A stretch of 64,000 nt of DNA from Bradyrhizobium guangxiense. GTDB lineage: Bacteria; Pseudomonadota; Alphaproteobacteria; Rhizobiales; Xanthobacteraceae. The number at the start of each line of letters is the position of its first letter. Position 1 is the first letter of the stretch. The notes under the pieces were generated by a model. That model saw only the letters and a program-made list of their open reading frames with translations, was not told where the DNA came from and ran no database searches. The DNA is taken from contig NZ_CP022219.1 in assembly GCF_004114915.1 (NCBI RefSeq), positions 3,502,501 through 3,566,500 of the forward strand, given 5' to 3'. This document shows, one piece after another, positions 810 through 41,068 of this stretch. The position numbers and the translations under genes were made by a program.

Positions 810-824
810 GAACACATATCGAAC
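810..824 (+). promoter_or_regulatory. LexA box (SOS operator) of lexA
   Basis: A perfect GAAC-N7-GAAC, the direct-repeat operator form known for alphaproteobacterial LexA, lies 100 bp before the lexA start. A likely -10, TATAGT, is at 826-831, so bound LexA would cover the promoter. This implies autoregulation. Confidence 0.85.
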
Positions 825-924: not shown

Positions 925-1626
925 ATGTTAACGCGCAAACAATACGAGCTTCTGCGGTTCATCAGCGAACGTTTGAAGGAAAGCGGCGTGCCGCCCTCCT
1001 TCGACGAGATGAAGGATGCGCTCGACCTGCGCTCGAAGTCAGGCATCCACCGCCTGATCACCGCACTCGAGGAGCGCGGCTTCATCCGCCGCCTGCCCAA
1101 CCGCGCCCGCGCCATCGAAGTGATCAAGCTGCCGGAGCTCCAGGCGGCCGCCGGCAACCGACGCGGCTTCACGCCAAGCGTCATCGAAGGCAATCTCGGC
1201 AAGGTGCGCGCGAGCACCAGCCCGCCCGCTGACGAGGGCGAGCGGCCCGTGGCGGTGCCAGTGATGGGCCGCATCGCGGCCGGCACGCCGATCGAGGCGC
1301 TACAGACCCGAAGCCACACCATCAGCGTGCCGCCTGACATGCTCGGCTCGGGCGAGCATTACGCACTCGAAGTGCGCGGCGATTCCATGGTCGAGGCCGG
1401 TATCCTCGACGGTGACATGGCGCTGATCCAGCGCAACGAGAGCGCCGACACCGGCGACATCGTTGTGGCGCTGATCGATGACGAGGAGGCCACGCTCAAG
1501 CGCTTCCGCCGCCGCGGCGCCTCAATCGCCCTCGAGCCCGCCAATGCCGCTTATGAAGTACGCATCCTGCCGCCGAACCGCGTGAAGATTCAGGGCAAGC
1601 TGATCGGACTTTACCGGAAGTACTGA
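925..1626 (+). CDS. lexA: LexA repressor / S24 autopeptidase
   Basis: LexA represses SOS genes and cleaves itself when RecA is activated by DNA damage. The 233-residue product begins [10 protein letters not shown], the winged HTH (residues 1-65). It then has the self-cleavage pair A119-G120 in GRIAAGTP, the catalytic serine S154 in RGDSM, and the lysine K192 in ATLKRF. The ATG at 925 was chosen over an in-frame TTG at 916 because the GGGGGAC ribosome site at about 908-914 fits only the later start, and family members begin with MLTRKQ. A GAAC-N7-GAAC box sits upstream. Other LexA-type boxes in this window are at 40194-40226 and 35260-35274. Confidence 0.97.
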
Positions 1627-5351: not shown

Positions 5352-5434
5352 GGTGGGTTCCTTGTTGGACCCACTCCAACGCGCAGGAACGAGGTTCGTT
5401 CTCGCCCTCGGGAATGACGATGCCGTGTGCTGCC

Positions 5435-36387: not shown

Positions 36388-39300
36388 CTAGATCTGCTGC
36401 ACGTCCACCACGCCCGCGACCGCCTTGATCGCGCCGGCGATCTGCGGCGAGACCTTGAAGCGGCCGGGCAGCTTCATCTCGACCTCGGTCTCGAGGTCGA
36501 GCATCATCACCAGCGATACCTCGCCGTCGCCATTGGAGCGCGGCGCTATGCCCGGACTGCCGATCTTCGGCGCGGCACCATTCGATGCGGCCATGTCGGG
36601 GCCGGCCAGACGTTTGGCGATCGAGTCCAGCGGCTTGGTGTCGCGCAGGAAGATGCGCAGGCCCTTCTGCGTCTTGGCGGCGGCATCGTCGAGCGGCTCG
36701 GCATGCAGCACGCGGGCGCGGACGTCCTCGCCCTGCAGCTCGGCGCCCAGCTGCAGCAGCACGGCGGCGCCCGGCTCCAGCACGTCGCGATATTGCGCGA
36801 GCCCTTCGGAGAACAGCACCGCCTCGAAATGGCCGGTGGGATCGGAGAGCCCCATGATGCCCATCTTGTTGCCGGTCTTGGTGCGCCGCTCCATGCGCGA
36901 GACCACGGTGGCTGCGACCTTGCCGGCGGTGGCGCCGGTCTTCACCGCGCGCGAGAATTCGGCCCAGCTCTGCACCCGCAGCCGCTTCAGCACGGTGGCA
37001 TAATCGTCGAGCGGATGGCCCGACAGGAAGAAGCCGACGGCGTCGTATTCGCGGCGGAGCTTTTCGGCCGGCAGCCACGGCTCGATCTGCGGCAGCATGA
37101 TGGTCGGCGCATCCGCCGACATGCCGAACATGTCGTTCTGGCCGATGGTCTCGGCCTGATGCGCGCGCTGGCAGGCGGCCAGGATCGAATCCGCGCCGGC
37201 GAAGACGCGGGCGCGGTTCGGCTCGAGCGTGTCGAAGGCGCCGGCGGCGGCGAGACTTTCGATGATGCGCTTGTTGATCGCACGCGGATTGACCCGCGCG
37301 GCGAAGTCGGCGAGCGAGGTGAACAAGCCCCGCTTCGTGCGCTCCTCGATGATCTGCTCGATCGCCTGGATGCCGACGCCCTTCAGCGCGGCGAGCGCAT
37401 AGTAGATCGTCTTCTCGCCGACGTCGAAGGTCGCGCCCGACCGGTTGATGTTCGGCGGCTCGACCTTGATGCCGAGGCGCTGCGCCTCGGAGCGGAATTC
37501 GGACAGCTTGTCGGTGTTGTTGAGATCGAGCGTCATCGACGCCGCGATGAACTCCACCGGATAATGCGCCTTCATGTAGGCGGTGTGGTAGGAGACCAGC
37601 GCATAGGCCGCCGCATGGCTCTTGTTGAAGCCGTAGTCGGCGAATTTCGCCAAGAGCTCGAAGATGGTCTCGGCCTGTGCCTTGGGCACGCCGTTCTTCA
37701 CTGCACCCGCGACGAAGATGTCGCGCTGCTTGTCCATCTCGGCGCGGATCTTCTTGCCCATGGCGCGGCGGAGCAGGTCGGCGTCCCCGAGCGAATAGCC
37801 CGACATCACCTGCGCGATCTGCATCACCTGTTCCTGGTAGATGATGACGCCGAAGGTCTCCTTGAGGATCGGTTCCAGCACGGGATGCAGATATTCGGGC
37901 TCCTCGTCGCCGTGCTTGCGCGCGCAATAGGTCGGGATGTTCGCCATCGGGCCCGGGCGATACAGCGCCACCAGCGCGATGATGTCCTCGAAACGGTCCG
38001 GGCGCATGTCGACCAGCGCGCGCCGCATACCCTGGCTTTCAACCTGGAACACGCCGACCACCTCGCCGCGGGCCAGCATCTGGTAGCTCTCGGCATCGTC
38101 GATCGGCAGCGTGGCGAGATCGACATGGATGTTGCGCGGCTTCAACAGCTTCACCGCGACGTCGAGCACGGTCAGCGTCTTCAGGCCGAGGAAGTCGAAC
38201 TTGACGAGGCCGGCGGGCTCGACCCACTTCATGTTGAACTGGGTCACCGGCATGTCGGATTTGGGATCGCGGTAGAGCGGCACGAGCTCGCTCAGGGGAC
38301 GATCGCCGATCACGATGCCGGCCGCGTGGGTCGAGGCGTGGCGGGTCAGGCCTTCGAGGCGCTGGGCGATGTCGAAGGCGCGCGCCACCACGGGATCTTC
38401 ATCGCGGAACGCCTGCAGCTTCGGCTCGCTCTCGATCGCGGCCGCCAGCGTCACCGGGGCCGCCGGATTCTGCGGCACCAGCTTGGTCAGCTTGTCGACC
38501 TGACCATAGGGCATCTGCAGCACGCGGCCGACGTCGCGCAGCACGCCGCGCGCCTGCAGCGTTCCGAAGGTGATGATCTGCGCGACCTGGTCGCGGCCGT
38601 AGCGCTGCTGCACGTATTGGATCACCTCGCCGCGGCGGTCCTGGCAGAAGTCGATGTCGAAGTCCGGCATCGAGACGCGCTCGGGATTGAGGAAGCGCTC
38701 GAACAGTAGGCCGAACTTGATCGGATCGAGGTCGGTGATGGTCAGCGCCCAGGCGACCAGCGAGCCAGCGCCCGAGCCGCGGCCCGGCCCGACCGGAATG
38801 CCCTGGCTCTTCGCCCATTTAATGAAGTCGGACACGATCAGGAAGTAGCCCGCGTATTTCATGCGGGTGATGACATCGAGCTCGAAGGCGAGCCGCTTGG
38901 CGTAGGTCTCTTCCGTCGTGCCCTGCGACAGGCCGTGGACGCCGAGGCGCCTGGCGAGCCCCTCCTCGGCCTGGCGCTTCAATTCCGCCGCCTCGACTGC
39001 GGCGGCGTCCGAGCTCTGCGCGGCGCCGACGGTGAAGAACGGCAGGATCGGCTTGCGCGTCATCGGGCGGAACGAGCAGCGCTCGGCGATCTCGACCGTC
39101 GAGGCCAGCGCCTCCGGAATGTCGGCGAACAGCACCGCCATCTCGGCGCGGGTCTTGAAGCGATGATCGGGGGTGAGCTGCTCGCGCTCGGTCTCGGCGA
39201 TCAGCCTGCCGCCGGCGATGCAGAGCAGCGCGTCATGCGCCTCGTAATCGTCGGTCGAGGCGAAATACGGCTCGTTGGTCGCGACCAGCGGCAGTCCCTT

Positions 39301-39891
39301 GGCGTAGGCGAGGTCGATCAGGCCGCTTTCGACGCGCCGCTCCTTTTCGGTGTTGTGGCGCTGCAATTCGATGTAGAGGCGATCGCCGAACAGGCCCGCC
39401 AGACGCTCGCAGCGCGTCGCGGCGAGCTCGGCATGCCCCCCGGCCAGCGCCAGCGAGATCGGCCCGTCCGGTCCGCCCGTCAGCGCGATCAGCCCCTCGG
39501 TCTCGCCCTCGAACCAGTCGAACTTGATGAACGGAGCATGGCTGTCCGGCGATTCCAGGAATGCGCGCGAGTTCAGCCGCATCAGGCTGCGATAGCCGGG
39601 CTCCTGCGCCGCCAGCAGCACCACACGCGAGGGTCCCATCGCATTGCGCGCATTCGGATCCTGGTCACCGAAATCGATCGCCAGCTCGCAACCGACGATC
39701 GGCTGGATGCCGGAGCCCGCCATCTTGTCGGAGAACTCCAGCGCGCCGAACAGATTGTCGGTGTCGGTCAGCGCCAGCGCCGGCTGGTGGTCCTTCTTGG
39801 CAAGCTCGGCGAGCTTGCCGATCTTGATCGAGCCCTTGAGCAGCGAATAGGCCGAGTGAACGTGAAGGTGAACAAATCCGGCGCTCGGCAT
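36388..39891 (-). CDS. dnaE: DNA polymerase III alpha subunit DnaE
   Basis: The replicative polymerase subunit, 1167 residues. Domains in order are: PHP (from VHLHVHSAYSLLKGS), the palm with GPGRGSGAGSLVAW (about 368) and the catalytic Asp pair D410 and D412 in MPDFDIDF, the third acidic motif in LVKFDFLGLKTL, fingers with YQEQVMQIAQ and DLLRRAMGKK, a helix-hairpin-helix part, and an OB fold near the C-terminus. The length and full PHP fit the main replicase DnaE1 rather than the SOS-induced DnaE2. A 32-residue SOS-type gene lies 186 bp upstream on the same strand. Confidence 0.97.
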   Translation of the reverse strand: MPSAGFVHLHVHSAYSLLKGSIKIGKLAELAKKDHQPALALTDTDNLFGALEFSDKMAGSGIQPIVGCELAIDFGDQDPNARNAMGPSRVVLLAAQEPGYRSLMRLNSRAFLESPDSHAPFIKFDWFEGETEGLIALTGGPDGPISLALAGGHAELAATRCERLAGLFGDRLYIELQRHNTEKERRVESGLIDLAYAKGLPLVATNEPYFASTDDYEAHDALLCIAGGRLIAETEREQLTPDHRFKTRAEMAVLFADIPEALASTVEIAERCSFRPMTRKPILPFFTVGAAQSSDAAAVEAAELKRQAEEGLARRLGVHGLSQGTTEETYAKRLAFELDVITRMKYAGYFLIVSDFIKWAKSQGIPVGPGRGSGAGSLVAWALTITDLDPIKFGLLFERFLNPERVSMPDFDIDFCQDRRGEVIQYVQQRYGRDQVAQIITFGTLQARGVLRDVGRVLQMPYGQVDKLTKLVPQNPAAPVTLAAAIESEPKLQAFRDEDPVVARAFDIAQRLEGLTRHASTHAAGIVIGDRPLSELVPLYRDPKSDMPVTQFNMKWVEPAGLVKFDFLGLKTLTVLDVAVKLLKPRNIHVDLATLPIDDAESYQMLARGEVVGVFQVESQGMRRALVDMRPDRFEDIIALVALYRPGPMANIPTYCARKHGDEEPEYLHPVLEPILKETFGVIIYQEQVMQIAQVMSGYSLGDADLLRRAMGKKIRAEMDKQRDIFVAGAVKNGVPKAQAETIFELLAKFADYGFNKSHAAAYALVSYHTAYMKAHYPVEFIAASMTLDLNNTDKLSEFRSEAQRLGIKVEPPNINRSGATFDVGEKTIYYALAALKGVGIQAIEQIIEERTKRGLFTSLADFAARVNPRAINKRIIESLAAAGAFDTLEPNRARVFAGADSILAACQRAHQAETIGQNDMFGMSADAPTIMLPQIEPWLPAEKLRREYDAVGFFLSGHPLDDYATVLKRLRVQSWAEFSRAVKTGATAGKVAATVVSRMERRTKTGNKMGIMGLSDPTGHFEAVLFSEGLAQYRDVLEPGAAVLLQLGAELQGEDVRARVLHAEPLDDAAAKTQKGLRIFLRDTKPLDSIAKRLAGPDMAASNGAAPKIGSPGIAPRSNGDGEVSLVMMLDLETEVEMKLPGRFKVSPQIAGAIKAVAGVVDVQQI

Positions 39892-40077
39892 GGTCGCGTG
39901 ATGGCCTTTCGCAGATGGGATGGAGCGGGTGCCGGCTCCTCAAGGCATCATGCGCCTGTCCGGCCGACTCGCAGGCACAATGGTGGGGTGCCGCGCCGCG
40001 AGAGTCCACGCCGGAGCGGCCGCTTCGCCGCGTCGTCCCGCTTTTCCCCAACCAGACACGCTTTGAAGGGCCGGGAC

Positions 40078-40176
40078 TCAGAGCTGGGGTATGACCTGGG
40101 CCCAGATCGCGATCATCCCGACGAACAGCGTGATCGACGCCAGTGCGGCGGCCTCTTCGACGAAAACCCTGAACAT
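40078..40176 (-). CDS. 32-residue membrane microprotein under dual LexA boxes; SidA-like candidate
   Basis: A short gene of 33 codons including stop. The product begins MFRVFVEEAAALASITLF and continues through GMIAIWAQ to a VIPQL end. A short acidic and basic N-terminus is followed by one hydrophobic segment (about residues 9-28), so it should sit in the inner membrane. Evidence that it is real: an ideal ribosome site (AAAGGAGCG, GGAG 7 bases before the ATG), a good promoter, and two perfect LexA boxes between -10 and -50. Size, topology, SOS control and position upstream of dnaE resemble SidA, the SOS-induced division inhibitor of Caulobacter (about 29 residues). Orthology is inferred, not shown. 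It would be missed by most gene callers. Confidence 0.72.
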   Translation of the reverse strand: MFRVFVEEAAALASITLFVGMIAIWAQVIPQL

Positions 40177-40193
40177 GTCTCGCTCCTTTGCTA

Positions 40194-40226
40194 GAACGTA
40201 TGAAGAACATTGTTCTCATTTCGTTC
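40194..40226 (-). promoter_or_regulatory. Pair of LexA boxes
   Basis: GAAC-N7-GAAC at 40194-40208 and GTTC-N7-GTTC at 40212-40226 are two perfect alphaproteobacterial LexA operators, 3 bp apart. They cover the -10 and most of the spacer of the promoter at 40209-40237. Spacers GTATGAA and TCATTTC are AT-rich, as in good boxes. Confidence 0.85.
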
Positions 40227-40237
40227 TCGGGAGTCAA
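40209..40237 (-). promoter_or_regulatory. Promoter of the SOS microprotein
   Basis: TTGACT (40232-40237) and AACAAT (40209-40214) with a 17-base spacer read toward the microprotein. The leader before its ATG is about 25 bases and contains the ribosome site. Both LexA boxes overlap it. Confidence 0.65.
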
Positions 40238-40288
40238 GCGCGTCAGGTGATCTCTAAAGGCAATGGTTAACTCGCTGAATTCACGCAA

Positions 40289-40318
40289 TAAAAAAGCCCC
40301 GGCCGAGGCCGGGGCTTC
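40289..40318 (-). terminator. Rho-independent terminator of the porin gene
   Basis: On the minus strand, AAGCCCCGGCC and GGCCGGGGCTT form an 11-bp stem followed by a run of T, about 30 bp after the porin stop. Confidence 0.93.
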
Positions 40319-40345
40319 GACGAACGCTCGAGAGAGCGATCGATC

Positions 40346-41068
40346 TCAGTAACGGCCGAGGACCGGGCCGCCGAACTTGTAGTTCAGGCGGACGAGGCCC
40401 ATGTCGACGTCCTGCTTGATGCGGTCGGTGCCGGCGAGACCGGCGAAGGTGACGTCCTTGTCCGACAGGAAGATGTGGTTGTACTCGACGCCAACCGACC
40501 AGTTCGGCGCAAAGCCGTACTCGAGGCCAGCACCGACCGTACCGCCCCAACGGGTCTGGTCGTTCGAGGACAGCAACGCACCCGAGGCCGTGCTGAACAC
40601 GTCGTACTTGACGCCGACCACAGCCGCACCGCCCTTGACGTAGAGCAGGACGTTGTTCCAGGCGTAGCCGACCTGACCGGTGATCAGACCGAACGAGTCG
40701 ATCTTCGAGCGATTGCGAGTGGCAAACAGCGCGCTGACATTGTCGCCCGAGAAGTCGGCCCAGTTGCCCTGACCTTCCACGCCGAACACCCACTGGCCGG
40801 ACTGCCAGCGATAGCCGATCTGGCCACCGACCGTGCCGCCGGTCGCATCGTGCGAACCTTCGCGGCCACCACCGACGAGATCCCAGGTGCTGTGAGCGGA
40901 ACCGCCGCCGCCGTTGATACCGATGTAGAAGCCACTCCAGTCGTAGATCGCGGCGACCATCGCAGGCGCCTTGGTGTAGGGCCGTGCTGCGAGGTCAGCA
41001 GCCAGTGCCGGCGCAGTCGCGCTGAGCGCAACAAGGCTCACAGCAGCAAGCAACAAATTCTTCTTCAT
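40346..41068 (-). CDS. Omp25/RopB-like outer membrane beta-barrel protein
   Basis: A 240-residue small barrel protein. It has a signal peptide (KKNLLLAAVSLVALSATAPALA, cleavage after residue 23), then the family start YDWSGFYIGINGGGG. Eight alternating amphipathic strands follow, including VGGQIGYRWQSGQWVFGVEG and WSVGVEYNHIFL, and the C-terminal strand ends near LNYKFGG. Such proteins are abundant structural or adaptive outer membrane proteins in rhizobia. It is monocistronic with a strong terminator. Confidence 0.92.
   Translation of the reverse strand: MKKNLLLAAVSLVALSATAPALAADLAARPYTKAPAMVAAIYDWSGFYIGINGGGGSAHSTWDLVGGGREGSHDATGGTVGGQIGYRWQSGQWVFGVEGQGNWADFSGDNVSALFATRNRSKIDSFGLITGQVGYAWNNVLLYVKGGAAVVGVKYDVFSTASGALLSSNDQTRWGGTVGAGLEYGFAPNWSVGVEYNHIFLSDKDVTFAGLAGTDRIKQDVDMGLVRLNYKFGGPVLGRY

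Follow-up and report, generated by a model that had tools for sequence, protein, structure and literature searches.

A small membrane protein gene behind predicted LexA boxes upstream of dnaE1 in Bradyrhizobium, a probable counterpart of Caulobacter sidA

Introduction

SidA of Caulobacter, an SOS-induced division inhibitor, is a 29-aa inner-membrane protein that acts on FtsW and whose effect is relieved by ftsW mutations (PMC4211646), and the filamentation that follows lexA deletion in Caulobacter depends on sidA (PMC12700426). In C. crescentus sidA is listed as CCNA_02004 (PMC10769358), lexA as CC1902 and dnaE1 as CC1926 (PMC1839093); the numbers of sidA and dnaE1 come from two series and the adjacency of the two genes is stated in neither passage. 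DidA, also a small damage-induced membrane division inhibitor of Caulobacter, differs in being 71 aa long, SOS-independent and directed at FtsN (PMC4211646), so that of the two targets that a first-pass annotation of the locus described here had ascribed to SidA, FtsW holds and FtsN belongs to DidA instead. Other small membrane division inhibitors induced by the SOS response or by damage are YneA (B. subtilis), SosA (S. aureus) and ChiZ, of which YneA and ChiZ carry a LysM domain and SosA an extended helix; the membrane helix of YneA binds FtsW, and SidA has been placed on FtsW helix 7 in models of limited confidence (PMC13396833). SOS-induced membrane micro-proteins are also known from E. coli (DinQ, under LexA, and TisB; PMC3567139). 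In the order to which Bradyrhizobium belongs, ribosome profiling and proteogenomics placed a small frame, sORF25, in the dnaE1 5' UTR of S. meliloti (PMC10117765). In the open-access literature we found neither a report of a SidA-type division inhibitor in rhizobia nor one joining SidA, FtsW and Agrobacterium. Here we describe a candidate SidA-type gene, lying outside the published family model, in a 64,000-nt stretch of the Bradyrhizobium guangxiense genome (hereafter the window, positions counted from its first letter).

Materials and methods

The small protein was searched in genomes of the same genus, family, order (Hyphomicrobiales) and class, either as a single sequence or as a profile (A1) made from a 34-sequence alignment. 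Loci of the family and order in which LexA boxes were read were picked by hand to span the match rankings, and the substitution analysis used the gene of the window together with 20 loci spread down the genus ranking below the best 30. Loss of the gene was followed in 43 genomes without a convincing match, namely 23 from the family, made up of 20 of the 49 matchless genomes and three with weak matches, and 20 from the order, drawn from the 173 without an A1 profile match.

For a class-wide survey, DnaE1 was matched in 128 of 142 alphaproteobacterial genomes, 90 upstream regions were read and 89 were usable. Within 500 nt upstream of dnaE1, we looked for a perfect LexA box ending 10–90 nt before a hydrophobic frame of 24–50 residues with a ribosome site. 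The Caulobacter sample consisted of four genomes, half of them isolates and half metagenome bins (C. crescentus was not included), that were located via the S-layer gene and then searched for DnaE1.

Results and discussion

The small gene lies on the reverse strand (40176..40078, −), where a 99-bp frame encodes the 32-residue peptide MFRVFVEEAAALASITLFVGMIAIWAQVIPQL. Its one hydrophobic segment reaches a maximal hydropathy of 2.13 in a 17-residue window, compared with 2.10 for SidA, and is predicted from this to form a single membrane helix. An AAAGGAG ribosome-binding site (40183..40189, −) stands 6 nt ahead of the ATG, and a promoter, TTGACT-17-AACAAT (40237..40209, −), agrees with the consensus at 9 of 12 positions and is the sole promoter-like site on either strand between 39850 and 40350 (50 shuffles averaged 0.0). 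The frame with its membrane segment 5' of dnaE, the ideal ribosome site and the promoter had all been proposed in the first-pass annotation and were recovered, and, as judged from its sequence, 40176..40078 is a real gene. The ORF upstream is an outer-membrane-type gene (40346..41068), followed on its 3' side by a terminator-like hairpin (40293..40318, −); if this hairpin ends the upstream gene, the promoter of the small gene would be isolated. The next gene 3' of the small gene is dnaE1, coding for the replicative polymerase alpha subunit (36388..39891, −). No terminator-like site was found in the 186-bp gap between the two (39892–40077), so damage may increase dnaE1 transcription by read-through.

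Two predicted LexA boxes lie over the promoter and the start of transcription. Box 1, GAACGAAATGAGAAC (40212..40226), reads GTTC-N7-GTTC on the forward strand and overlaps the −10 element by its end, and box 2, GTTCTTCATACGTTC (40194..40208, −), has the same GTTC-N7-GTTC form and lies at the expected transcription start, so that bound LexA should block initiation. They face in opposite directions, and both are perfect and separated by 3 bp, as had been claimed earlier; the palindromic GAAC form then given to them was not borne out, each being a direct repeat of the type typical of Alphaproteobacteria. The GAAC-N7-GTTC reading has a single match in the window, at 5387, and none at the small gene. 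A lone direct-repeat site carries little information: the 64 kb hold four of them against 1.89 expected, a number reached by 10 of 100 shuffles, and the whole genome has 174 single sites against 223 for the reversed motif, that is, without enrichment. As single sites are this common, one box proves nothing and the evidence lies in the pair and its conservation. The window also contains lexA itself (925..1626, +; TIGR00498, 185.2 bits, cut-off 110.95) behind a perfect LexA box of its own (810..824, −), through which it is expected to be autoregulated, and its product should be the repressor that acts on the boxes of the small gene. The lexA gene and its box are about 35 kb from dnaE1; given the CC1902/CC1926 numbering in C. 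crescentus, this neighbourhood may be conserved.

In the genus, the small gene was matched in all 146 genomes searched (own included), 145 of them at E 9e−11 or better, which answers the call for a genus-wide search for the frame. The peptide is under purifying selection (pS 0.418, pN 0.066, Jukes–Cantor-corrected dN/dS 0.113 in 21 genes), as the first-pass annotation had expected of a true gene. For the same DNA read in the other five frames the pS/pN values were 0.118/0.156, 0.030/0.194, 0.156/0.152, 0.325/0.098 and 0.029/0.182, and only that with 0.325/0.098, on the opposite strand, had pN well under pS, less strongly than the small gene. The pair of boxes is without mismatch in 52 of 53 genus loci (30/30 of the best, own included, L031, L032 and 20/20 of those picked). 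The dnaE start motif follows in 31 of the 32 loci L001–L032, the contig of L021 ending before it could appear, and in 19/20 of the picked loci, at 167 to 249 nt from the stop of the small gene. The exception to the paired boxes is L033, with no box and no dnaE in its flank, which belongs to G100, the lone genome with a weak match (E 0.044). The weak relative found there reads MFISLLEEVASLAAIFLFVTTLAFWSNFLSTI; the assembly is 81% complete, so the true small gene may be absent from it.

Beyond the genus, the single-sequence search at E ≤ 1 matched 149/198 family genomes (11 of them congeneric), leaving 49 without a match, and 81/297 order genomes, many of them weakly. At E ≤ 0.01, profile A1 matched 124/297 order genomes in 52 of 122 genera, 24 of these 124 having themselves supplied rows to the alignment; F18 and W25 are invariant across its 34 sequences. 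Two perfect boxes are present in 25 of the 27 family loci (L034–L060), and at least one within 160 nt in 24 of the 29 order loci (L062–L090), that of L088 standing as far out as −153. Among the five order loci lacking such a box, L075 and L077 were set aside as likely chance matches, L077 lying inside the frame of a larger membrane protein. A dnaE motif was found in the short flank of 38 of these 56 family and order loci, and among the 18 others, L069, L070 and L082 show a dnaE start in their translations. The gene offers a testable object with a constant location across the genus and much of the order.

Among the genomes without a convincing match, the profile search of the 23 from the family gave ten matches at E ≤ 1, the best at 0.116. 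The dnaE1 gene was found in 39 of the 43; 30 loci were read and 26 of them contained the dnaE1 start. In 24 of these 26 upstream regions there is no perfect box within up to 600 nt (L316 offered 223 nt), and in the other two, L297 and L299, paired boxes precede a frame that has diverged, encoding MRAAASDLMRALTSASLLAGTLVVWAKLLAVL in one case and a nearly identical peptide in the other. Boxes without a frame were found in none of the 26, and the loss of the frame with boxes remaining, which had been named as the outcome that would speak against the gene, thus never occurred among them. Of the boxless regions, L320 retains a 32-aa membrane frame, MLDFVKDLAAFVTLGAFTIGSLTWMDIITHIV, while L303 and L315 have hydrophobic frames of unlike appearance. 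In L297 and L299, which belong to the same family (genus g10), the operator is conserved better than the peptide.

One lineage, f44/g115, keeps a frame of 27–31 residues at dnaE1 (L073, L086, L087, L088 and L334), and L327 encodes a peptide identical to that of L334 with dnaE absent from the flank. A perfect box is absent from five of these six loci over the fetched DNA or 250 nt, the sixth being L088, whose box stands at −153. With one mismatch allowed, a box is present in L087, and none lies within 140 nt in L073, L086 or L088. Ahead of the frame, loci of this lineage repeatedly show a GAACAAAACAAATAC-like half site over promoter-like sequence. Since the frame mostly stands there without perfect boxes, SOS control is not universal in the family. 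Further copies were seen in the same lineage at L328–L331 (e.g., MIIRDILALGSLLTFMTMLGVWASILF), with no perfect box and no dnaE in the flanks; they are possibly paralogs under other control.

The comparison with Caulobacter sets the locus beside sidA itself. In all four Caulobacter genomes a 29-residue frame lies behind a perfect LexA box just 5' of dnaE1 and on the same strand, and the three peptides that were scanned all match the SidA model NF033228, at 74, 73.7 and 73.4 bits (cut-off 35), the L164 peptide being the same as that of L163. The two loci therefore share a LexA box upstream, dnaE1 directly downstream on the same strand, a product of 29–32 aa with one membrane segment, and a weak profile similarity. 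They differ in that the window has two opposed perfect boxes, whereas SidA has one perfect and two one-mismatch boxes, and in the gap to dnaE1 (186 bp in the window, 36 bp in L163). They also differ in the protein: W25 is absent from SidA, whose one tryptophan is at position 19, and aligns to a valine if the hhalign alignment is extended ungapped, and the window protein has no match to NF033228 even at E 10. Pfam and NCBIfam returned nothing for the window peptide, nor did BLASTP against SidA. In view of the missed model, the window protein would be a diverged positional counterpart of SidA. One sequence may bridge the two types, namely L242 (MARWVREMLSLASCGGFVWMAWQAALLAY), which stands before dnaE1 behind a LexA box and scores 20.5 bits against NF033228 (E 3.5e−4), below the cut-off. 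Alignment of A1 with three SidA sequences and L242 by hhalign gave a probability of 69% (P 4.3e−5). The SidA of L163 scores 14.8 bits against A1, and those of L163, L164 and L166 lie above all 3000 shuffles and that of L165 above 998 of 1000; among natural hydrophobic 32-mers taken from membrane segments, 39 of 2522 reach the score of SidA against the profile. The sequence comparison suggests common descent without proving it, and the case for the link is carried by position, control, size and topology.

We therefore consider the small gene to be the Bradyrhizobium counterpart, and probable ortholog, of Caulobacter sidA, with a probability of about 0.75. The rhizobial SidA equivalent proposed in the first-pass annotation is in this way supported by the occurrence of SidA at the same place in Caulobacter, even if the family model does not recognize the protein. 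Taking the gene, its boxes, its conservation and its position from the sequence, and LexA binding, induction, membrane insertion, the FtsW target and the division block from SidA, a mechanism can be outlined. LexA on the two opposed boxes would cover the −10 element and the transcription start; after DNA damage, RecA would trigger LexA cleavage and the small protein would be made. It would enter the inner membrane as one helix, with the N-terminus probably inside because of R3, and would hold the FtsW–FtsI septal wall synthase inactive, whereupon constriction would stop until repair is done. We know of no common descent of the window protein with YneA, SosA or ChiZ.

Three other explanations were weighed against this one. 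The protein could be a TisB- or DinQ-like SOS-induced peptide, directed not at the divisome but at the membrane, whose depolarisation would slow growth or give rise to persisters. DinQ is indeed alike in size class and control, being LexA-controlled, with one membrane segment, membrane-depolarising, and expressed from a promoter that overlaps two LexA operators (PMC3567139). DinQ and TisB are, however, paired with antisense RNAs (AgrB and IstR), none of which was detected at the window locus: there is no antisense promoter-like site in 39850–40350, which leaves room for an antisense RNA of a new kind, and none of the 13 Rfam matches at E 1 or better reaches its gathering threshold, istR among them with 18.7 bits (gathering 45), over the upstream terminator. 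The position of the locus is that of SidA, and presence in all genus genomes searched would be unlike mobile toxin loci, so that we regard this explanation as improbable. Just below it we rank a regulatory leader (uORF): translation of the frame would adjust dnaE1 expression, and the peptide that it yields would be incidental. Such a role would fit the place of the small gene ahead of dnaE1 and has a parallel in S. meliloti, where sORF25 in the dnaE1 5' UTR is one of the novel small frames, and for eleven of these the authors suggest that they might partly function as uORFs (PMC10117765); sORF25 is likened to the window family by position only. Its difficulty is that the amino-acid sequence does not drift freely (dN/dS about 0.11) and keeps F18 and W25 in 34 sequences, that the distance to the dnaE motif varies over the 167 to 249 nt seen in the genus, and that the motif is missing from the short flank of the 18 family and order loci mentioned above, three of which show the start by eye.

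The least probable of the three, in our estimate a slim chance, is that the gene descends from the same ancestor as sidA and is LexA-controlled, with a target that has changed in rhizobia, for instance to another envelope or respiratory complex. The miss of the SidA model, the invariant W25 absent from SidA and the lineage largely without perfect boxes would agree with a changed target, while the retention of size, position and box in many lineages of the order speaks against it, as does the presence of FtsW in nearly all walled bacteria. 

If the small gene is the counterpart of sidA, as we favour, the sidA–dnaE1 locus would extend beyond Caulobacter, a function could be offered for the small frame ahead of S. 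meliloti dnaE1, and tiny regulators would be findable by position and operator where sequence drift defeats family models.

Across the class, a LexA box followed by a membrane frame of 29–47 residues was found in 17 of the 89 dnaE1 upstream regions, the own genome and one other of the own order (L176) included, and not in the remaining 72. Among 11 permuted motifs used as controls, ten gave none and one gave a single case, and the reverse strand gave one. Besides L242, six of these box-and-frame peptides were scanned (L176, L187, L193, L220, L210 and L211), and no match to NF033228 was obtained for them, nor for L196, which has no perfect box. With these data we lean, if only slightly, towards SidA being no peculiarity of Caulobacter but one extreme of an ancient module of the Alphaproteobacteria, a LexA-controlled division-inhibitor gene ahead of dnaE1 that evolves too fast for sequence searches to find it. 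In this module the SOS promoter may also read into dnaE1; if it does, the division stop would be coupled to more replicative polymerase. The class-wide profile search at E ≤ 1 gave matches in 178 of 385 genomes, many of which cover short stretches within longer frames and seem accidental; the sole one that was placed, in G758, adjoins dnaE1.
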